In this document: piece by piece, positions 5,720 through 19,005 of the stretch
Layout: every line of letters starts with the position of its first letter
Position numbering within the stretch: position 1 is the first letter of the stretch
DNA from: a virus
Reading direction: 5' to 3' (one strand)
Virus record (IMG/VR): IMGVR_UViG_3300001356_000007
Span: 1 to 35,079 of that record
Length of the DNA: 35,079 bases
The notes under the pieces: model-generated
Database searches by the model: none
Told to the model about the DNA's origin: nothing
What the model saw: only the letters and a program-made list of their open reading frames with translations
Translations under genes and position numbers: made by a program

Positions 5720-5941
5720 GTGAACGATTTTCTTTCCGGCATGTGCTTTATGCTCATTTTGGTGGCGGCCCTCCGTTGTTGGCCGACTGACGACAGTGAT
5801 CGTGACGCTGATCACCGCTCCGGTATGGGCGTCTACACGGATTACAAGACGGGCTTGCAGTACCTTGGGAAATGCGGCGCGTTGACGCCACGTCTCGATA
5901 CAGATGGGAAACAGATTATGATCGAGGCTCATCATGACTGA
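5720..5941 (+). CDS. DUF6440-like protein with N-terminal membrane segment
   Basis: A 73-residue protein starting at GTG 5720 with CGGAGGGTG upstream. Residues 3-18 are hydrophobic (FLSGMCFMLILVAALRCW) and may anchor it in the membrane. After an acidic linker comes the motif GVYTDYKTGLQYLGKCG followed by LTPRLDTDGKQI, which matches the short DUF6440 pattern (a strand, Tyr-Leu, then 'L-D-x-x-G-K'). The function of this family is unknown. It overlaps the next gene by 8 bases. Confidence 0.55.
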   Translation: MNDFLSGMCFMLILVAALRCWPTDDSDRDADHRSGMGVYTDYKTGLQYLGKCGALTPRLDTDGKQIMIEAHHD

Positions 5942-6320
5942 CCGTAAGCCCGTCACCCTCGACGATCTGAATCGGGACGAACTGCTGTCTCTCGCTCAGT
6001 CGCATGGCTTGTGGCTGGAGAGCGATCTTGTCTGGGCGCAGTGGATGGTCGCCAGCGCCAGGGCGCTCAAGGCACAGGATGCCGTTGTCACTTTTCTCGG
6101 CCAGATCGGGCCGGCGGCCAAGGCATTCGACGCCGCCCATAAGGAGTTCGATCCGCAGGCGAGCGTTCAAAAAATGGATCGGGCGCTCAAGAAAATCGAG
6201 GTGGCGAGGGCGGAATATCGGCGCGTCGAAGCAGAATATAGCAGGCTCTCCGCTAAGGCTGGCTGGTGCCAGCGCCGGGCAAACCGTCTTTACCGGCTGT
6301 ACGAGGAGTTGCCGCGATGA
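5934..6320 (+). CDS. Hypothetical coiled-coil phage protein
   Basis: A 128-residue basic helical protein. The middle (about 45-110) reads as a long helix with heptad-like spacing (ASVQKMDRALKKIEVARAEYRRVEAEYSRL), so a coiled coil is likely. No family was recognised. It is placed directly before gemA and coupled to it by ATGA overlap (6317-6320), so it is part of the semi-essential early region. Confidence 0.5.
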   Translation: MTDRKPVTLDDLNRDELLSLAQSHGLWLESDLVWAQWMVASARALKAQDAVVTFLGQIGPAAKAFDAAHKEFDPQASVQKMDRALKKIEVARAEYRRVEAEYSRLSAKAGWCQRRANRLYRLYEELPR

Positions 6321-7753: not shown

Positions 7754-8245
7754 GTGCCTTATCCCTCCGCAGCCATCCCCTCCACTGCCGATAACTTCGC
7801 TGATTGGCTTGCTAGCCTGACCGATGCGCAGGTCATGGCAGTGACTTTGTTGGGAGAGGCTCGCGGCGAGGATACGCTTGGTCGCCAAATGGTCGCCAAT
7901 GTCTTCATGACCCGCGTCAAGATCGCCCAGGAACATCAAGCCCGCGTCGGCGCTCCTTATTGGTGGGGCGCCAATGTTCGGGAAGTCGTTCTTAAGCCGT
8001 GGCAGTTCTCGTGCTGGAACGAAAATGATCCTAACCGGCCAGAGTTAGCGAATCTGCCAAATACGCCACTTTGGCCCGAGGCGATGTTCATTGCCGACAC
8101 GGCGGTTGCGGGAAATTTGGCCGATCACACGAACGGCGCCACCCACTACCTCAATCCCAGAACCGTGGGACTTTGGCCGACCTGGGCCACACCGGCAAAT
8201 CAGGTCGCCGCGCATCTTCATCACACCTTTTACCGCGTTCTTTAG
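7754..8245 (+). CDS. SleB-type cell-wall hydrolase (endolysin)
   Basis: A 163-residue protein of the cell-wall hydrolase family SleB/Hydrolase_2, here the likely endolysin. Family features are MAVTLLGEARGED at about 28-40 (Glu35 is the likely catalytic acid), the following VANVFMTR helix, and PWQFSCWN at about 83-90, plus a C-terminal GATHYLNP segment. No signal peptide or membrane segment is seen, so export would depend on the holin-like protein encoded next. The start is GTG 7754, preceded by GGTGA, which is also part of inverted repeat IR2. It is the first gene of the late region after the Mor-like regulator. Confidence 0.85.
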   Translation: MPYPSAAIPSTADNFADWLASLTDAQVMAVTLLGEARGEDTLGRQMVANVFMTRVKIAQEHQARVGAPYWWGANVREVVLKPWQFSCWNENDPNRPELANLPNTPLWPEAMFIADTAVAGNLADHTNGATHYLNPRTVGLWPTWATPANQVAAHLHHTFYRVL

Positions 8246-8254
8246 GAGGCCTTT

Positions 8255-8755
8255 ATGAAGGGCTATCGCACCGTCATTTTTTCGGCCGTCGTCATGTTGG
8301 GTGGCATGGTCGGTTGGCACGTCGCTCCGGACGTGATCAACAACTATCTGGATATCATCTTCGCCGCCATCGGTGTCGGCGTCTTGGTGTTGCGCATTGT
8401 CACCACCACTCCGTTCGGGGCAGCGGTCGCCGCCGATCTCGGCACCAAGCCAAGCGACCTTGAGTATCTGTTGTCGAAACTCGACCCGGACATGTCGGAC
8501 AACCTCAATTCCGCTATTTCCGATCTCAACACGGCGGTCGGCAAGCTGACTGGCCATGTGCCGGTGGCCCAGGCGACGATCGATGCGCTCGCCGCCGTGG
8601 CGCAGACCATCACCAGCACCGTCGCCAGTTCCACGGCTCCGCCTCAACCTGTGACGGCGGCTGGTCAGGCTGCGACAGCTCTGGGCACGGCCAGCAGCGC
8701 GATCAATTCGGCGACGACGGCTATCGATTCGGCCACCACCGCCTTGGTTCAGTGA
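8255..8755 (+). CDS. Holin-like membrane protein
   Basis: A 166-residue protein with two hydrophobic segments near the N-terminus (about 7-25, VIFSAVVMLGGMVGW, and about 33-50, YLDIIFAAIGVGVLVLRIV) joined by a short loop. A long Ala/Thr/Ser-rich soluble tail follows. Two membrane spans, the basic start MKGYR and the position right after the endolysin gene point to a holin or holin-associated role. The long tail is atypical for a small holin. It has a perfect AGGAGG ribosome site 6 bases before the ATG. Confidence 0.6.
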   Translation: MKGYRTVIFSAVVMLGGMVGWHVAPDVINNYLDIIFAAIGVGVLVLRIVTTTPFGAAVAADLGTKPSDLEYLLSKLDPDMSDNLNSAISDLNTAVGKLTGHVPVAQATIDALAAVAQTITSTVASSTAPPQPVTAAGQAATALGTASSAINSATTAIDSATTALVQ

Positions 8756-10235: not shown

Positions 10236-10835
10236 ATGACGCGCCCGTCCAAAATCGATCGCCTGCCGTCTGAGATCCGGGAAGAGATCGGCGCATTGCG
10301 TGAGCGAGGCTATACGATCGACGAGATCCTTGGGCATCTGCGCGCCCTTGATGTTCCCCCTGGCGAGCTTCCCTCATGGTCCGGGTTACAGCGCCATGTC
10401 CAGGGCCTGGATAAGCTGGCCGAACGGTTGCAGCGGAGCCGGGCGGTCGCCGAGGCCCTTGTGCGAAGGATGGGCGATGCTCCGGAGGGGCGTCAGGCGC
10501 GGCTCAATATCGAGTTGATGCATTCGATCGTAACCGACCTGGTGTCGGCGATCGGCGACCAGACCGGCGACGACGGCGAGACGACGGCGGTCACCTTCGA
10601 TCCGGAACAGGTGATGTTCCTGGGTCGGACCCTTCGAGACCTGGCGGCCGCTTCGAAAACCGATGTCGATGTGGTGACCAGGTTGCGCGAAGAACAGCGC
10701 AAGATCGCTCAAACGGAGATGGGGAAGAAACTCGACACCGCCATGGGTGCCGTCGCCAAGGAACGTGGTCTCAGCGCCGATACCGTTGCCGCGATCAAGA
10801 GCCAGATCCTCGGCGTGAAGGCCGGAAGCTCATGA
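10236..10835 (+). CDS. Small terminase subunit (Mu gp27-like, DUF3486)
   Basis: A 199-residue protein of the DUF3486 family, the small terminase of Mu-like phages, which recognises the phage end for headful packaging. The N-terminus PSKIDRLPSEIREEIGALRERGYTIDEILGHL is the family signature and forms a helix-turn-helix-like fold. The middle and C-terminus are long helices (LQRSRAVAEALVRRMGD; VVTRLREEQRKIAQTEMGKKLD). It is coupled by ATGA overlap to the large subunit. Confidence 0.9.
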   Translation: MTRPSKIDRLPSEIREEIGALRERGYTIDEILGHLRALDVPPGELPSWSGLQRHVQGLDKLAERLQRSRAVAEALVRRMGDAPEGRQARLNIELMHSIVTDLVSAIGDQTGDDGETTAVTFDPEQVMFLGRTLRDLAAASKTDVDVVTRLREEQRKIAQTEMGKKLDTAMGAVAKERGLSADTVAAIKSQILGVKAGSS

Positions 10836-12436
10836 GCGGCCCGATCAACCGCGAAGAATGGGCCAAGTTGCGCGCCGAGGCGCGCTTCACCATTCCGGAC
10901 CAGCTTCGCGGGGGCAGCCTTCCCGACGTTCTTTTGACCTATCAGCAAACGCTGCTTTCGACGACCGCGATATCGCGCGTTACCGTCGTCGAGAAATCCC
11001 GGCGCACCGGCTATACCTGGGCGGTCGCCGCCGACGCAGCTCTCACCTCCGCATCGGCCCGCACAGCCGGCGGCATGGACACTTTATATATAGGCTACAA
11101 CCTCGACATGGCTCGGGAGTTCATCGACACCTGCGCCATGTGGGCGAAGGCGTTCAACCAGGTGGCCGGAGAGGTCGAAGAGTACGTCTTCAAGGATCAG
11201 ACGAAGGACGGCGAAAATAACATCCAGGCGTTCCGGATCGTCTTCGCCTCCGGCTTCGAGATCGTGGCGTTGTCGTCGCGGCCACGGTCCCTGCGCGGTC
11301 GTCAGGGCTATGTGATCATCGACGAGGCGGCCTTCCATGACGACTTGCCCGGCTTGATGAAAGCGGCGCTGGCCCTCTTGATGTGGGGTGGCAAGGTGCT
11401 GGTGATCAGCACCCACGACGGCGACACCAATCCGTTCAACGAATTGGTCGAGGATGTTAAAAAGGGCCGCAAGCCGTACAAATTGATCACGCTCGATTTC
11501 GACCAGGCGCTCAAGGATGGGCTTTATCAGCGCATCTGCCTTGTCACCGGAGCGACCTGGTCGCCAGAAGCCGAAGCGGCATGGCGCGAAGAGATCATCG
11601 CCTTCTATGGCGACGCCGCCGACGAAGAACTGTTCGTCATCCCCGCCAACGGCTCAGGCACCTATCTCCCGTCGCTGCTCATCGAGCGCGCCCAGAAACC
11701 CGGCATCCCCGTGGTGCGCTGGGAATGCTCGGCGGACTTCATCAAGCTCAACGATCGCACCAGAGAAGCTGAAGCGCTGGAGTTCTGCCGTAACGAGCTG
11801 GCGCCGCTGCTCGATCAACTCGACAAGGAACTCAAGAGCTATTTCGGGCTCGATTTCGCCATGTCGGGCGATCTCACGGTGACCTGGCCGATTCAGATCC
11901 AGCAGGACATGACCAGGCGCCCGCCCTTCATCATCGAACTGCGCAACACCCCTTACGCGCAGCAGCGGCAGATCCTTTGGTATCTCATCGATCGCCTTCC
12001 GAACTTCCAGACCGGCGCCATGGATGCCACCGGCAACGGCGCCCCGCTCGCCCAGGAGACGGCAACCCGGTACGGCCTCGGCAACATCATGGAAGTGAAG
12101 ATCAATGAAGCCTGGTATCGGGAAGTCACCCCGAAGTTCAAGGCCGGGTTTGAAGACGATCTGATCGCGATGCCCCGCGACATCGATGTCTACAACGACC
12201 ATCGGGCGATCAAGCTAGTCCGGGGCGTGCCGCAGATCGACCGCGCTCCGCAAATCCACGGACGCGGCGAGGATGCCGGCAAGGGCGGCAAGAAGAAAAG
12301 GCATGGCGACGCCGCGATCGCCAACATGATGGCCTATTACGCAACCGTCCTCACCCGCAACGATTCCATCATCGAACACTACCGGCGCCAGGTTCAGGCG
12401 CTCAATTCAGCCGCCACCACGGCGCAGGAGGCATGA
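10832..12436 (+). CDS. Large terminase subunit (Mu gp28-like)
   Basis: A 534-residue terminase that powers DNA packaging and cuts the DNA. The ATPase has a variant Walker A (EKSRRTGYTW at about 55-64) and a Walker B YVIIDEAAFHDDL at about 159-171, followed by a coupling motif VISTHDGD. The C-terminal nuclease of RNase H type begins at YFGLDFAMSGDLTV at about 337-350, the Asp being the first metal ligand, with further acidic residues later (MDATGNG, GDAAIAN). The length matches the Mu gp28 family. It stands between the small terminase and the portal, the usual order. The end overlaps the next ATG. Confidence 0.92.
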   Translation: MSGPINREEWAKLRAEARFTIPDQLRGGSLPDVLLTYQQTLLSTTAISRVTVVEKSRRTGYTWAVAADAALTSASARTAGGMDTLYIGYNLDMAREFIDTCAMWAKAFNQVAGEVEEYVFKDQTKDGENNIQAFRIVFASGFEIVALSSRPRSLRGRQGYVIIDEAAFHDDLPGLMKAALALLMWGGKVLVISTHDGDTNPFNELVEDVKKGRKPYKLITLDFDQALKDGLYQRICLVTGATWSPEAEAAWREEIIAFYGDAADEELFVIPANGSGTYLPSLLIERAQKPGIPVVRWECSADFIKLNDRTREAEALEFCRNELAPLLDQLDKELKSYFGLDFAMSGDLTVTWPIQIQQDMTRRPPFIIELRNTPYAQQRQILWYLIDRLPNFQTGAMDATGNGAPLAQETATRYGLGNIMEVKINEAWYREVTPKFKAGFEDDLIAMPRDIDVYNDHRAIKLVRGVPQIDRAPQIHGRGEDAGKGGKKKRHGDAAIANMMAYYATVLTRNDSIIEHYRRQVQALNSAATTAQEA

Positions 12437-12732: not shown

Positions 12733-15384
12733 ATGCCTGGTTTAATCGAACGTCTCGCCGTCGCCGGCCGCTACGCCTTTACCGGTCAGGTGCCGGCTGG
12801 CGCCAATTGGTTCGGACCACATGAGCCGCTCCCGCCGATGGCGCCGGAGGCGGTTGCCGGGCGTCGCACGGATTACCGTAGCGGCGTCAATCTTGACAAT
12901 AAGCCGCGCCAGGGCGAGGGAATTGATTTCCAGCAGCTCCGCGCGCTGGCCGACAATTGCGGCATCGTGCGACTGGTGATCGAAACCCGTAAGGATCAGC
13001 TTGGCTGGCGGAAGTTCGATGTTCGACCAAAGGAAGGATCGAGCGCAAAGGCCGATGATCCGGACATCATAATGATCAAGACGGCGCTCGAATATCCCGA
13101 TCGGGAACATGATTGGGAGACCTGGCTCAAGGCGCTTGTCGAAGAGATGCTGGTGATTGATGCGGCGACGATTTATCCGCGTCGCGCCAGAAACGGCAGC
13201 CTTTACAGCTTGGATCTGATCGACGGCGCCACCATCAAATGCATCATCGATCCATGGGGTCGCCGCCCAGTGTTCCCCGATCCTGCCTACCAGCAAGTTC
13301 TTCATGGCCTGCCGGCCATCGATTACACGGCTGACGAACTGCTTTATCTGCCGCGCAACTACCGGACCAACAAGATTTATGGCCTGCCGCCCGTAGAGCA
13401 GATCGTCATCATGATCAACATCGCGCTCCGCCGCGAATGGCATAAGCTTCAGTATTATACCGAGGGCACCGTTCCGGATGCCTTGGCAGGCGTCCCTGGC
13501 GACTGGAACATCAACCAGATATCCGAGTTTCAGGACTATTTCGATACGCTTCTGGAAAACAACACCGCCCAACGGCGCAAGATCCGTTTTGTTCCGGAGA
13601 CGATCGCCAAAGCCTTCATCCAGACGAAAGAAGCGGCGCTGAAGGATGACTTTGATGAATTCCTCGCCCGCTTCGTCTGCTACGCTTTTTCCGTGAGCAG
13701 TCAGTGGGCCGTCAAGATGATGAACCGCTCGACGGCTGAAAGCGCCGCTCAGCAGGCGACCGAAGAAGGTCTCGCCCCTCTCCAATCCTGGGTGAAAAAC
13801 GTCATGACGCGCGTCATCGCGCAGGTGTTTAAACGCCCGGATCTGGAATTTTCCTGGCAGGAGGACACGGCGGTTGATCCGTCCGAGCAATCGAAGATCG
13901 AAGATCTGAACCTCCGGAACGCATCGGCGACAATCAACCAGGTTCGCGCCGCACGTGGCGAAGATCCGGTCGAGTACGGCAATGAACCGCTGATCTATAC
14001 GGCGACCGGCGTGGTTACACTAAAGGACGCTTTAAATCCGCCAGCCCCGCCTTCAAATCCACCCCTCCCTAATGGTGCCGCTCCGCAAAATGAGGGCAAT
14101 CCGCCTCCCGCTAAAGGGAAGATGCAAAAGGCGGCCGGCGACGATCCAGATCAACGTCTGAAGGATTTGTGGACCGCCCATCTCAAGGAGCAAGCCAGCC
14201 GCGTCACCCTCTATTTATCTTCCGACGATGTGGCGGAAGGCCGTCCGGCCGATGCCGATACACTGGCGGCCGGCGCGATCGACGCCTCGGCCACCGCGAC
14301 GGAGCGTCATGTGCTGGTGGAAGAGACGGCCAAGATCCTGCTCGATGCCGGCCAGACCGGAATTGAAGAGGGTGTCGCGGCCCTGGTTGCCGAGACCGGA
14401 AAGGACGGCGCCACAGCCGGAATCGTCATGGGGCCGCAAGAAGCGGTCGAGATTACCAATCTGGCCCACCCGAGCGCGGTCGAGTACGCAACCAGCCGAT
14501 CCGCCAAACTGGTCTCGAACATCGACGAGACCACGAGGGGCTTGTTGCGCGGCCTGATCGCGAAAGCGCAGGAGGAGGGTTGGAGCACCGCGCGGCTCGC
14601 TGATGAGGTTGAGGCCATGGGTGGTTTTGGCCCGGTTCGCGCCGACATGATCGCTCGCACCGAACTGGCCGGCGCATCGATTCGCGGCAACTTGGCATCG
14701 TGGATCACCGCGCGTGACCGCTTCGGGATCAAGATGAAGAAACGGGTGATCTTGGGCATCAACGAGCAGCATTGCGCGGCTTGCGCGGATGCAGTGCGCG
14801 AAGGGCCGATCGACCTGGATGATAGCTGGAACGTCGGTTATGCGCCGCCCTTCCATCCCCGTTGCGGCTGCGACGTGGTGCCGGAGGTTGATGATAGCGA
14901 GGAGGGGCCTCGCGCAACCGGCCCTTTTGACCGGATGGAAAAGGCGTTTGATCCGGATCAGCCGAGGGACACCAACGGTAAATGGTCTGCCGGGGGTTAC
15001 GACGCGGCTGTCGAGATTCTTCGTGGGCAAACGGCCATGCATACCGTCATCGGCGAGCAAAGAGACGTGCCGGCGGCCATGCGGGCTCCCGGCCTTGGCC
15101 CGGTAAGCTTCGTCTGGGGAACCCCTGGCGATCCGGCAAAGGACTTCAAGGGCGGTTTCGGCATCAACCACATCATTGCCAAACGGAACGCCGAGGGGCA
15201 CGACGGTCAGGCGGTGGCTCTGAAAATCCCGGAGATAATCGCCAGGGGCCAGCAACAAAACCCGCGCGGCCCGGTCGGCGGCCGCCGCGTCGATATCGTG
15301 CATGACGGCCACATCGTCGTCCTGTCGCTAAACCGGCACGGCAAAGATGAAGCGTGGGTGCTGAGTGGCTGGAAGAAAGATTGA
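12733..15384 (+). CDS. Portal-MuF-nuclease fusion protein
   Basis: An 883-residue three-part protein. Residues 1 to about 430 form a portal of the Mu gp29/DUF935 type (LADNCGIVRLVIETRKDQLGW; LLYLPRNYRTNKIYGLPPVEQI; DFDEFLARFVCYAFSVS). A Pro-rich linker (about 434-465) leads to a MuF/SPP1 gp7 minor head domain (about 470-720), ending in ARTELAGAS, a Cys pair (CAAC) and FHPRCGCDV at about 706-714. A short FDPDQPRDTNGKWSAGG hinge then leads to about 140 residues with GFGINHIIAKR (His813), PEIIARG and a terminal WVLSGWKKD. That is the pattern of PBECR/barnase-EndoU-like phage nucleases. In most Mu-like phages portal and MuF are separate genes. The stop is followed by 557 bases without a clear gene. 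Confidence 0.85.
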   Translation: MPGLIERLAVAGRYAFTGQVPAGANWFGPHEPLPPMAPEAVAGRRTDYRSGVNLDNKPRQGEGIDFQQLRALADNCGIVRLVIETRKDQLGWRKFDVRPKEGSSAKADDPDIIMIKTALEYPDREHDWETWLKALVEEMLVIDAATIYPRRARNGSLYSLDLIDGATIKCIIDPWGRRPVFPDPAYQQVLHGLPAIDYTADELLYLPRNYRTNKIYGLPPVEQIVIMINIALRREWHKLQYYTEGTVPDALAGVPGDWNINQISEFQDYFDTLLENNTAQRRKIRFVPETIAKAFIQTKEAALKDDFDEFLARFVCYAFSVSSQWAVKMMNRSTAESAAQQATEEGLAPLQSWVKNVMTRVIAQVFKRPDLEFSWQEDTAVDPSEQSKIEDLNLRNASATINQVRAARGEDPVEYGNEPLIYTATGVVTLKDALNPPAPPSNPPLPNGAAPQNEGNPPPAKGKMQKAAGDDPDQRLKDLWTAHLKEQASRVTLYLSSDDVAEGRPADADTLAAGAIDASATATERHVLVEETAKILLDAGQTGIEEGVAALVAETGKDGATAGIVMGPQEAVEITNLAHPSAVEYATSRSAKLVSNIDETTRGLLRGLIAKAQEEGWSTARLADEVEAMGGFGPVRADMIARTELAGASIRGNLASWITARDRFGIKMKKRVILGINEQHCAACADAVREGPIDLDDSWNVGYAPPFHPRCGCDVVPEVDDSEEGPRATGPFDRMEKAFDPDQPRDTNGKWSAGGYDAAVEILRGQTAMHTVIGEQRDVPAAMRAPGLGPVSFVWGTPGDPAKDFKGGFGINHIIAKRNAEGHDGQAVALKIPEIIARGQQQNPRGPVGGRRVDIVHDGHIVVLSLNRHGKDEAWVLSGWKKD

Positions 15385-15511: not shown

Positions 15512-15673
15512 ATGACAAGAAGCCCGCGCGGCAGTGAAACCTTTCTGCCAGCCGTCCACCCGGTGATTCTTTGCGGGGAATGGGTGGCGAGACGGCCTCC
15601 CGGCATACTCGTTCGATATATGACCTTCGCCCCGCTCCCGCGATGGGCCGCTTTACCGCCTCAGGGCGTTTAA
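15512..15673 (+). CDS. Possible 53-residue ORF downstream of the toxin domain
   Basis: A short frame with an excellent ribosome site (AAGGAG ending 8 bases before the ATG) encodes a basic peptide beginning MTRSPRGSETFLPAVHP and rich in Arg, Pro and Trp. For it: the ribosome site, and its position where MuF-toxin loci usually carry an immunity gene. Against it: codons rare in this phage (AGA twice, ATA, TTA, CGA), no recognisable fold, and heavy overlap with predicted RNA hairpins. It may be a real small protein, a leader peptide, or non-coding. Confidence 0.3.
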   Translation: MTRSPRGSETFLPAVHPVILCGEWVARRPPGILVRYMTFAPLPRWAALPPQGV

Positions 15674-15941: not shown

Positions 15942-17468
15942 ATGTTGTTCATTCCTCTTCGCAAAGTCGATTCCGTTCGCCGGATCGTCATCGCCCGCCT
16001 GGACGAGACGCCCGACCGCTCGGGTATGGTCATGGACTATGAGTCTTCCAAGCCGGCCTTCCTCGACTGGTCGGACAGCATGCGGAAGGCCACCGGCGGC
16101 GCCAGCCTCGGCAATGTCCGCGAAATGCACACGCTGAAGGCGGCCGGCAAGGTCACCCGGCTCGATTGCCTGGACGTGGAAAAGGCGTTCGAGTTCGAGC
16201 TTGAGATCGTCGATGACGACTCGATGGCCAAGGTCGAGGCCGGCGTTCTCACGGGCATCAGTCAAGGCGGCAAATACGGGCGCCGTTGGCAAGATGGCTC
16301 CTACATCCGCTACACGGCCGGCAAGGTCAACGAATTGAGCCTGGTCGATTATCCCTGTAATCCCACCGGCACCTTCTCGATGGTCAAGGCTGACGGCGCC
16401 GAGGTGACGGTATCGACGGTCGAGCCCGAAGGCGCCGCCATGCGCTTTGTCGGCGCGCTTCTGATCGACGCCGAGACTCCCCTGGATTACCGCGAAATCC
16501 TGATTGCCCAGCCGGCCGACATGCTGAAGAGCCTTTTCCCCGAGGGTGGTCCGGACGGCATGCAGAAGCGGGATTTTGATGCCGCTGAGCGTCAGGCCGC
16601 CGTCGCGAGGGGCGAGGCGATGCCCGATGGCGCATTCCCGATCGCGAAGCCGGAAGACATCGCGGTCGTGCTTAAGGCATTCGGTCACGCCTCCGACAAA
16701 ACCGCCGCCAAAGCTTGGATCGAGAGGCGCGCCAAGGAGCTTGGCGCAACGAGCGACCTCCCTGTTGGTTGGGAGGGGTCGACCAAGAAAGACATCATGC
16801 AAAAGGGTTTTGACCAGGTTGTCAGTCTGACCACCCTGATTCAATCCCTTCGCTGGTTGACGAGCACCGTCATCGGCGAGGCGGCCGCCGAGCAGGACGG
16901 CTCGAAAATCCCCGACCGGCTTGTGGTCTGGGTAAAGGACGGCGTCGTCATCCTCGGAGACATGATGACGGAAGAATCCACTGAGGCGATGGCCGCGTTG
17001 CAAGCGTCACTCGATGCCCTTCCGCCTGCCGCCGCCGCTGTCATGGAAAGTGCGGCGAAGGTGGAGGACATGGCCAAAGCCGGCGCGCGCAACAACAAGA
17101 CGGATCAGTCTCGCATTCAGGCGATCCATGACCACGCCGCCTCGCTTGGCGCGCATTGCCCCGAACACGAAGGCGGCGGCCTGCCCAGCATGGTCAAGAT
17201 CGCGGGCGAGCTTACCTCCATGCGCTCCCGCCTTACCGACGCGATCGCCGAAAATGACGTGATGCAAAAACGCATTCGGGAGTTGGAGGGGGAGCCTGCG
17301 CCGGGAGGTCCAGGCCGGACCAACGTCGTTGTCGACAAAGCGAACGATCTCGGAGGTCAAGGCTCGCGCGCCTCGGAAGAGGCGGCGGCGCTGAGGGCCA
17401 TCGAAGCGATGCCGGATGGCGCTGAAAAGACCACAGCCCTTGTGCGCCATTCCATGAAATTCAACTGA
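15942..17468 (+). CDS. Prohead protease/scaffold-type protein
   Basis: A 508-residue protein just before the capsid gene. The N-terminal 150 residues resemble the XkdF/HK97-like putative prohead protease fold: IARLDETPDRSGMVMDYESSKPAF, the strand-rich FEFELEIVDDDSMAKVEAGVLTGISQGG, and VNELSLVDYPCNPTG. A catalytic Ser/His pair cannot be fixed by eye. A conserved phage module follows (KRDFDAAERQ...GEAMPDGAFPI...WIERRAKELGA at about 207-265). The C-terminal part is helical and coiled (MRSRLTDAIAENDVMQKRIRELEGE), fitting a scaffold. A protease with a self-cleaved scaffold tail is the likely role. The ribosome site is weak (GGGCGG). Confidence 0.7.
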   Translation: MLFIPLRKVDSVRRIVIARLDETPDRSGMVMDYESSKPAFLDWSDSMRKATGGASLGNVREMHTLKAAGKVTRLDCLDVEKAFEFELEIVDDDSMAKVEAGVLTGISQGGKYGRRWQDGSYIRYTAGKVNELSLVDYPCNPTGTFSMVKADGAEVTVSTVEPEGAAMRFVGALLIDAETPLDYREILIAQPADMLKSLFPEGGPDGMQKRDFDAAERQAAVARGEAMPDGAFPIAKPEDIAVVLKAFGHASDKTAAKAWIERRAKELGATSDLPVGWEGSTKKDIMQKGFDQVVSLTTLIQSLRWLTSTVIGEAAAEQDGSKIPDRLVVWVKDGVVILGDMMTEESTEAMAALQASLDALPPAAAAVMESAAKVEDMAKAGARNNKTDQSRIQAIHDHAASLGAHCPEHEGGGLPSMVKIAGELTSMRSRLTDAIAENDVMQKRIRELEGEPAPGGPGRTNVVVDKANDLGGQGSRASEEAAALRAIEAMPDGAEKTTALVRHSMKFN

Positions 17469-17478
17469 GGAGCCACCG

Positions 17479-19005
17479 ATGAACCCTTCCGGAGTCACCA
17501 ACGATACGCTGGATATGCTCAAAACGCCGGGCGCCAGCGCCGAGGACATGATCAAAGCGTGGTTCGCCCCGACCGGCGCCACCACCGGCATTCAAAATTA
17601 TTCGCTCGTCAAACCGGCGCTGAGCCTTGTTCCGGTGGTAACGCCGATTTTGAACTCGTTGAGTTTCGATACCGACACCAGCGGCGGCATCCAGTCGAAT
17701 TGGAAAGCGATCACCGGCCTTAACACCAACGGATTGTCGGCGGGCCTGTCCGAAGGCAACCGCGGTGCCCCCATCGCGACGGCAACGGCCGATTATTATG
17801 CCAGTTTCAAATCGTTCGGCCACGATGACTATGTCACCGACGAGGCGCGGCAAGTGGCGTCGGATTACATGGACTTGCTGGCTCGCGCCCAAGCCAATCT
17901 GCTCTTTACGTCGCGCATCAGCCTGGAGCGGGTCTGCCTCGGCGGCCTCGGCACCTATTCGCTATCCGCCCCGTCTGCTCCGACCTTGGCGACGGCCACC
18001 ACGGGCGGCACGTTGCCGGCGACCACGACTTATTCCGTTATTTGCGCGGCATTGACTACCAGCGGCTGGCGCAATGGAACGATTGCTCTCGGCGTTCCTG
18101 GCCTGGTTTCGCGCACCAACATGGACGGTTCGGTCGATACTTATGGCGGTGGCACTGGCCCGCGCTCGGGCAATACCACCATCGCCACTGGCGCCGGCGC
18201 CACAAACTCGATCACCGCCTCCGTCCCGGTCGTTTCCGGCGCGGTCGCCTATGCGTGGTTCTGGGGAACTGCCGGTTCGGAATTGTTGGGCGCCATCACC
18301 ACCATCAATTCGCTGGCGATCACCGCATTGGCGGCAGGTACTCAGACGGCGGCCTCTCTTGGCGCGGCGGCCACCGACTTTTCCAAGAATGCCTTGGAAT
18401 GCGATGGCCTGATCTCGATTAACGCCAAGTCCGGCTACAACACCTACACGTTGGCGCAAGCGACGGGGACGGCCGGCGTCGGCACCCCACTGACCGCCGA
18501 CGGTGTTGGCGGTGTCGTCGAGTTTGACCTCGTGTGCAAGTGGATGTGGGACAATCTGCGCACCGGACCGACGCGCATCATCATGTCGAGCCAAGAGCAA
18601 ACCAACGTCACCAAGAAGGTGCTGCAATCGCCCGGCGGAAACGGCGCGCAGCGTTTCATGATCCAGGCCAACCAAGGCTCGGTGATCGGCGGCGATCTCG
18701 TTGTCGGCTATCTGAACAAATGCGGCAACAACTACGCCGCCAAGGCCGGCGAGCCCGCCAAATACGTCCCCTTCGTCATCCATCCGGATTTGCCGCCCGG
18801 CACCGTCATCTTCGACACCGAGGTCTTGCCCTATCCGCTGAATGACACGCCCAAGGTCAAGCGGTTCATCTCGCCAGAGCCCTGGTATGCCACTCTGTGG
18901 CCGCGCGTCCGTCGTCGTTACGAATACGGCGTCTATTGCCGAGGTGTGCTTCAGCACTTCTTCCCGGCGTCCACCGTGGTGCTCACCAATATCGGAAACG
19001 GCTAA
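17479..19005 (+). CDS. Major capsid protein with inserted beta domain
   Basis: A 508-residue protein in the capsid position after the protease/scaffold gene. The flanking parts read like a HK97-fold coat protein: an N-arm, KPALSLVPVVTPILNSLSF, a spine helix region TDEARQVASDYMDLLARAQANL, then a C-terminal half (TGPTRIIMSSQEQTNVTKKVL; ending RRRYEYGVYCRGVLQHFFPASTVVLTNIGNG). Residues about 162-290 are a Gly/Thr/Ala-rich beta segment with the rhythm of an Ig-like domain. It is probably inserted in a surface loop and displayed on the head. Removing it leaves a typical coat length of about 380. The start has a GAGGAG ribosome site. Confidence 0.8.
   Translation: MNPSGVTNDTLDMLKTPGASAEDMIKAWFAPTGATTGIQNYSLVKPALSLVPVVTPILNSLSFDTDTSGGIQSNWKAITGLNTNGLSAGLSEGNRGAPIATATADYYASFKSFGHDDYVTDEARQVASDYMDLLARAQANLLFTSRISLERVCLGGLGTYSLSAPSAPTLATATTGGTLPATTTYSVICAALTTSGWRNGTIALGVPGLVSRTNMDGSVDTYGGGTGPRSGNTTIATGAGATNSITASVPVVSGAVAYAWFWGTAGSELLGAITTINSLAITALAAGTQTAASLGAAATDFSKNALECDGLISINAKSGYNTYTLAQATGTAGVGTPLTADGVGGVVEFDLVCKWMWDNLRTGPTRIIMSSQEQTNVTKKVLQSPGGNGAQRFMIQANQGSVIGGDLVVGYLNKCGNNYAAKAGEPAKYVPFVIHPDLPPGTVIFDTEVLPYPLNDTPKVKRFISPEPWYATLWPRVRRRYEYGVYCRGVLQHFFPASTVVLTNIGNG

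Follow-up and report, generated by a model that had tools for sequence, protein, structure and literature searches.

According to the account of polyvalent proteins by Iyer et al. (2017, PMC5512222), PBECR domains occur fused to MuF and portal domains, 2H and InPase domains are likewise fused to portals with predicted delivery together with the DNA, and built-in metallopeptidases have been proposed to release the domains of polyvalent proteins. MuF domains also serve as carriers of exchangeable C-terminal effectors in the MuF polymorphic toxins of temperate phages, whose genes adjoin that of the terminase (Jamet et al., 2017, PMC5576092). Portal and MuF domains in one chain are found in Arthrobacter phage Sonali gp3, whose gene is annotated as 'portal and MuF-like fusion protein', in the Brevundimonas phages Strzyga and Polewnik, and in PHROG 2662. 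In T4 and SPN3US, packaged and ejected proteins are processed by the head protease (PMC9026906, PMC10052503), and the known site of the T4 protease gp21 is (L/I)xE (PMC9026906).

The stretch of DNA analysed here (the window, 35,079 nucleotides) is nearly the whole of a 35,127-base virus record. Judged from its sequence, the phage is a transposable Mu-like phage, with genes for a DNA transposition protein, transcription regulators, a DksA-like protein, Mu gp27 (PF11985), terminase, maturation protease, tape measure and tail proteins. A type II hammerhead ribozyme (RF02276; 4643-4719, plus strand; 39 bits, gathering threshold 37) with conserved CUGAUGA and GAAA cores was also observed in its early/middle region. 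Table 1 lists the features around the portal gene.

Table 1. Features of the portal-MuF-PBECR1 locus in the window; a slash marks a putative cut
Feature	Positions	Strand	Basis or remark
Large terminase subunit	10832..12436	+	PHROG 2
Portal-MuF-PBECR1 chain, 883 aa	12733..15384	+	open frame; Pfam and PHROG domains; full-length homologues L012 and L024
Portal domain, PF04860 Phage_portal, residues 121-408	13093..13956	+	45.4 bits, cut-off 39.1
Putative head-protease site 1, M464-Q-K466/A467, in Pro-rich linker 438-469	14122..14133	+	motif statistics; pLDDT < 50
MuF domain, residues 609-715	14557..14877	+	PF04233 below threshold; PHROG 2468 and 2662
Putative head-protease site 2, M735-E-K737/A738, then FDPDQPRDTNGKW	14935..14946	+	junction motif; pLDDT < 50 at 721-744
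PBECR1 domain PF18809, residues 783-882, RNase-like (predicted)	15079..15378	+	42.1 bits, cut-off 27.6; model pTM 0.71
Candidate catalytic H813	15169-15171	+	N-terminal helix His of PBECR1
Candidate catalytic S878	15364-15366	+	C-terminal Ser of PBECR1
Conserved element of ~90 nt overlapping the stop codon	15379..15469	+	nhmmer against all fetched loci; alignment
53-aa ORF, ribosome-binding site AAGGAG	15512..15673	+	ORF list, gap analysis; weak immunity candidate
Head maturation protease with C-terminal scaffold part	15942..17468	+	PHROG 80 'head maturation protease', E 2e-5
Probable major capsid protein	17479..19005	+	gene order and homologues; PHROG 13692 without assigned function

A sequence-only reading of this DNA had described one uninterrupted frame with a portal, a MuF and a PBECR-type domain, and this is borne out by the ORF, which has no internal stop across 883 residues, and by Pfam and PHROG. 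The tail motifs that it quoted could be located at residues 810-818 (GINHIIAKR) and 875-880 (WVLSGW). Its assignment of the portal to the DUF935 type was wrong; the HK97-type family PF04860 matches instead, Portal_Mu (PF06074, DUF935) gave no Pfam match to the window protein at E 0.1, and in some relatives PF06074 reaches only scores below its cut-off. On the window protein, PF04233 (Phage_Mu_F) scores 17.5 bits, below its cut-off of 29.6, which is passed by the homologues L012, L043 and L091. PHROG 2468 ('head morphogenesis') spans residues 551-721, and the homologue alignment contains the invariant MuF columns C684, H708, C711 and C713. PHROG 2662 ('portal protein', 717 positions) spans residues 40-722 (E 4.5e-89); since this profile covers both domains, portal and MuF in one chain represent an already recognised family. 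A missed frameshift or an assembly error could be ruled out, because the same three-domain order is uninterrupted in L012 and L024, and the fusion is therefore not a sequencing artefact.

To place the chain among its relatives, about 145 loci with a homologous portal were taken from portal-alignment scans of bacterial genomes and viral contigs; such homologue sets are a sample from pattern-based scans and no census. Portal and MuF form one chain at 79 of these loci, or 52 after clustering at 75% identity, and a tail of at least 90 residues follows MuF in 8 of the 52 clustered chains, with more tailed members outside that strict set. The search for portal-MuF fusions with the same tail was successful: besides the window protein, PBECR1 tails in the same domain order are carried by the divergent homologues L011/L002 (60%), L012 (47% identical, 913 aa) and L024 (949 aa), the last with 24.0 bits, slightly under the Pfam cut-off. 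L002 was the only case found in viral contigs, and a scan of 385 genomes from the class to which a Methylobacterium relative belongs gave 3 PBECR1 matches. PBECR3 tails follow portal-MuF in L063 and L043 and, weakly, in L052 and L076, whereas LPD3 takes this place in L030 and L065. The tail of L091 has no domain match, and in L042 PBECR3 sits on a separate, split MuF. The view that the tail is a part of MuF can be ruled out, as most homologues stop directly after MuF and other domains substitute for the tail; the earlier description of it as a separate domain is thus confirmed. Across these homologous sequences, the portal-MuF carrier stays constant and the cargo tail is an exchangeable module.

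The portal within the same chain had been taken for the rarer feature, which does not hold: portal-MuF fusions are common, as seen from the 79 cases in the sample, PHROG 2662 and the Sonali annotation. PMC5512222 names MuF and portal domains as fusion partners of PBECR, so the supposedly rarer feature was already known. The portal-MuF-PBECR1 architecture is not new; what the analysis adds concerns its joints. Sonali, Strzyga and Polewnik differ from the window chain in having no C-terminal tail, and Sonali in having a NUDIX domain between portal and MuF. Like the polyvalent proteins of PMC5512222, the window protein combines several domains in one chain within a phage head-gene context, with a PF18809 match above cut-off and the MuF/portal fusion. 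It also resembles the toxins of PMC5576092 in its MuF followed by a variable, exchangeable C-terminal effector domain, as seen from PHROG and the homologues, in adjoining the terminase and in belonging to a temperate phage. Two irregular portal arrangements were seen among the relatives. In L002 (1406-4770) and L011, a viral contig and a MAG, an ORF for a MuA-like transposase passes directly into the portal gene at its middle, with the match beginning at portal residue 195; either a large deletion within the sequence or a chimeric assembly would account for this. L112 (2485-8139), as well as L054 and L115, has tandem partial portals with the C-terminal half repeated in separate ORFs.

The tail was matched by PF18809 with 37.6-42.1 bits on the window protein, against the cut-off of 27.6, and with 43.7 bits in the scan of its own genome. 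A four-sequence AlphaFold2 model (pTM 0.71, mean pLDDT 73) shows helices and then strands, the order of elements expected of the BECR fold with its N-terminal helix and four or five subsequent strands. The Foldseek and VIA-align searches with this model gave no strong match. RelE- and ParE-type toxins (5ceg, 7vd7, 2khe, 6n90, 3g5o) are among the top Foldseek rows with weak E values of 0.3 to 2 (best 0.29); VIA-align gave Z 5.7 for toxin 7vd7 and Z 5.4 for the CdiA toxin of E. coli NC101, neither of which stands out from unrelated rows, and a long run of DDB1 rows reflects a common beta arrangement. The PBECR-type assignment suggested earlier is supported by the Pfam match; the fold matches to RelE/ParE and CdiA toxins are weak.

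RNase activity of this domain, of the metal-independent endonucleolytic kind expected of PBECR1, is predicted as likely. Column 813 of the relatives holds His or Lys, column 818 Arg or His (Arg in the window protein, His in half of the relatives) and column 878 Thr or Ser; L012 has Lys and Arg at its active-site positions, without His. Because columns 813 and 818 vary among His, Lys and Arg, the activity is uncertain, and this variation within the lineage also suits a tail that is catalytically dead or purely structural or RNA-binding, the state proposed for phage Mu gp30, whose PBECR copy is called inactive in PMC5512222. Such a loss of function is unlikely for the window copy, which retains the published signature of H813 in the N-terminal helix and S878 near the C-terminus; position 878 is Ser or Thr in all aligned relatives, and the lineage-specific exchange of tails points to a role in conflict.

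The region 3' of the effector gene bears on another reading, in which the chain would act as a MuF polymorphic toxin when lysogens and non-lysogens compete, its immunity gene lying directly downstream, after the model of PMC5576092. The gap before the protease gene has a median of 484 bp in tailed members vs 11.5 bp (P 0.0009), which would fit an additional element behind the toxin, and in the window it measures 557 bp and holds an ORF of 53 aa preceded by a good ribosome-binding site. This ORF is not conserved in L011 or L012, no Rfam match was found in the gap, and the search there for an immunity gene gave nothing convincing, with no conserved ORF among the PBECR1 loci. What is conserved instead is the ~90-nt element, with copies at L012:8645-8737, L024:8830-8920 and L011:8085-8181; in the nhmmer search of the fetched loci it is confined to the four PBECR1-bearing lineages, and an exact-pattern scan for it gave nothing. 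The element may be a regulator of the predicted RNase that travels together with it. A folded RNA finds no support: the single sequence scores z 0.53, and the covariation term of the alignment is positive and hence unfavourable. The toxins of PMC5576092 occur mainly in Firmicutes, whereas the window is a proteobacterial Mu-like phage with the portal in the chain and no clear immunity ORF, and a toxin with adjacent immunity is improbable here.

The joints between the domains share a short motif, PhixK, consisting of [L/M/I/V]-x-K and then A, S or G. It was first spotted by eye in the linkers and then tested on other proteins. In the full-length model of the window protein, both of its sites fall inside low-confidence linkers (438-469 and 721-744, pLDDT < 50), and the two linkers hold 2 M-x-K vs 0.13 expected. 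Within 40 residues of the MuF-tail junction, [MLVI]-x-K is present at 12 of 13 junctions, compared with 3.1 expected from shuffling (P 1.6e-7). The joints read MEK/A in the window, MAK/A in L011, LGK/A in L012 and MAK/C in L024, and those before other tails MAK/V in L063, VGK/A in L043, VAK/A in L030 and LAK/G in L065; the tailed L091 has no canonical site, with AEK instead. After MuF, [MLVI] stands two residues before Lys 9 times vs 3 expected (z 4.2), and in the 52 portal-MuF linkers 225 times vs 149 (z 7.8), while the same count in the portal core shows no enrichment (218 vs 222); these shuffle tests are corrected for shared ancestry only by the 75% clustering. The linkers are Lys-rich, and their signal is weaker than that of the scaffold. 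An internal start codon at M464 in place of a cut site is less likely, because the signal is Lys-specific at +2 and holds for Leu, Val and Ile as it does for Met.

The motif is also accompanied by a second element. All 18 distinct [HQ]PRD..G[KR][FW] elements in the fetched loci are directly preceded by PhixK, and no relevant paper on the QPRD element turned up in a literature search. At L137:5584-7878, a portal is followed by a PhixK/QPRD linker and then by an M23 peptidase match whose score stays under the curated cut-off. Some PhixK-QPRD/HPRD elements begin small proteins adjoining the tailed portal genes of Methylobacterium prophages; one in L046, for example, starts with MATALTGLVRNFGAPSLAK before the putative cut and TWNEEDHPRDDDGKF after it. 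By analogy with the targeting peptides of T4, these small proteins look like a leader, a cut site and a cargo. Four such genes (L043:9418-9861, L043:9858-10496, L046:9432-10076 and L052:9399-9932), in which a leader is followed by PhixK and HPRD..GRW/GKF, are candidates for separately encoded internal head proteins.

The same motif recurs in the scaffold and capsid proteins, and the linkers commonly carry L/M/V-A/G-K-A, the core of a wider pattern, acidic-[LMIV]-A-K-[A/S/G], that scaffold and capsid N-arm have in common. Beyond residue 170, the scaffold part of 84 non-redundant maturation proteases contains 873 [MLVI]-x-K vs 398 expected (z 26.9), compared with controls at the same position of 255 vs 227 for Arg (z 2.7) and 413 vs 425 for Glu (z -0.7). 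The positions neighbouring [MLVI] two before Lys are depleted or near expectation. Coiled-coil periodicity was ruled out as the source of this signal, given that -3, -4 and +3 are depleted and that Arg and Glu behave unlike Lys. In 57 capsid proteins, 94 copies vs 47 expected fall within residues 1-60 (z 7.9), and neither the rest of the capsid protein (138 vs 150) nor the putative terminases used as negative control (278 vs 311) shows enrichment. For the window phage itself, M-x-K was counted 7 times vs 0.92 expected in protease residues 141-508 and twice vs 0.15 expected in capsid residues 1-40, where it lies at 13 and 24 of the N-arm (DMLK/T and DMIK/A). T4 provided a positive control: (L/I)xE is enriched in its scaffold gp22 (16 vs 5.7 expected, z 5.0), and the same count found no enrichment in the portal, the sheath or mature gp23. 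One short motif is thus common to scaffold, capsid N-arm and cargo linkers, as in the T4 gp21 system.

This sharing of the motif, together with the T4 control, leads us to propose that the chain is a head polyprotein, which we consider probable at roughly 0.6. The portal part would assemble as a 12-mer at one capsid vertex and draw MuF and PBECR1 into the prohead. The head maturation protease, which appears to cut after [LMIV]-x-K, would then cleave the chain at K466 and K737, and would also degrade its own scaffold part and trim the N-arm of the capsid protein. Free MuF (467-737) and PBECR1 (738-883, ~16 kDa) would lie inside the head, each in up to ~12 copies, and exit via the portal together with the DNA, and PBECR1 would cleave or bind RNA in the new cell. 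It would most likely act there as an early counter-defence or takeover effector; a lethal toxin is less likely because a temperate phage needs a living cell. The comparison with T4 internal proteins and Alt lies in head-packaged effectors being cut at a short P3-x-P1 motif that the same statistic detects; T4 gp21, however, cuts after Glu and acts on short targeting peptides, whereas the window phage would use a portal carrier and a predicted P1 Lys. The window chain is without the metallopeptidase proposed in PMC5512222 to release the units of polyvalent proteins, so that release by the head protease, as the Lys-type motif suggests, would be a different route. In the literature searched, outside which most subscription papers lie, no description of a Lys-type head-protease site or of a portal polyprotein was found.

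The sequence-only reading had a nuclease-like domain attached to every portal subunit; that it stays attached is doubtful, since the putative protease sites in both linkers suggest release. If the chain were never cut, about 12 PBECR1 domains would be tethered to the portal ring in the head and act there, or would act in the cell only upon entry of entire portal subunits or of fragments. The fusion is indeed a single frame in which cleavage at the linkers is predicted from sequence, and two isolated phages, known here from their genes alone, have uncut portal-MuF genes. Yet the Lys-specific motif occurs at both linkers and is shared with the scaffold and the capsid N-arm, and the portal channel would give a tethered domain no access to host RNA, which makes an uncut chain quite improbable. 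Similarly improbable is that PhixK serves docking or capsid targeting in place of cleavage, as a motif through which scaffold, capsid N-arm and cargo linkers would bind to one another or to the shell: the enrichment in scaffold and N-arm, the fixed spacing of HPRD/QPRD after PhixK and the small neighbouring Methylobacterium proteins that open with leader, PhixK and HPRD would also fit binding, but the many short copies along the scaffold with a small residue after Lys, a P3-x-P1 shape that fits the known head-protease motifs LxE, AxE and S/AxE (PMC9026906, PMC10052503), and the same signal given by the cut sites of T4 speak for proteolysis.

Beyond this one polyprotein cut by the head protease, it is tentatively suggested, at somewhat less than even odds, that the portal serves as a disposable carrier throughout a family of Mu-like phages. 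Portal-MuF-effector polyproteins with a portable [LMIV]-x-K/QPRD linker, released by a Lys-specific protease in the prohead, would amount to stoichiometric loading of exchangeable enzymes. If the linker motif is a protease site, it explains how a portal-fused effector leaves the virion, it predicts the exact cut positions, it makes packaged effectors findable by their linker in thousands of uncharacterised prophages, and it offers a natural route to load foreign enzymes into phage heads.

The protease and capsid genes of some relatives showed further peculiarities. At L004:7413-9983, the head maturation protease is fused behind an N-terminal RNA-ligase/2H-like domain (PHROG 755). In L003, the peptide KSTFxxPxSATDGLxxYDLE occurs twice, where the protease gene starts (5938-6000) and in the capsid N-arm (8072-8260), and a similar peptide occurs in L004.
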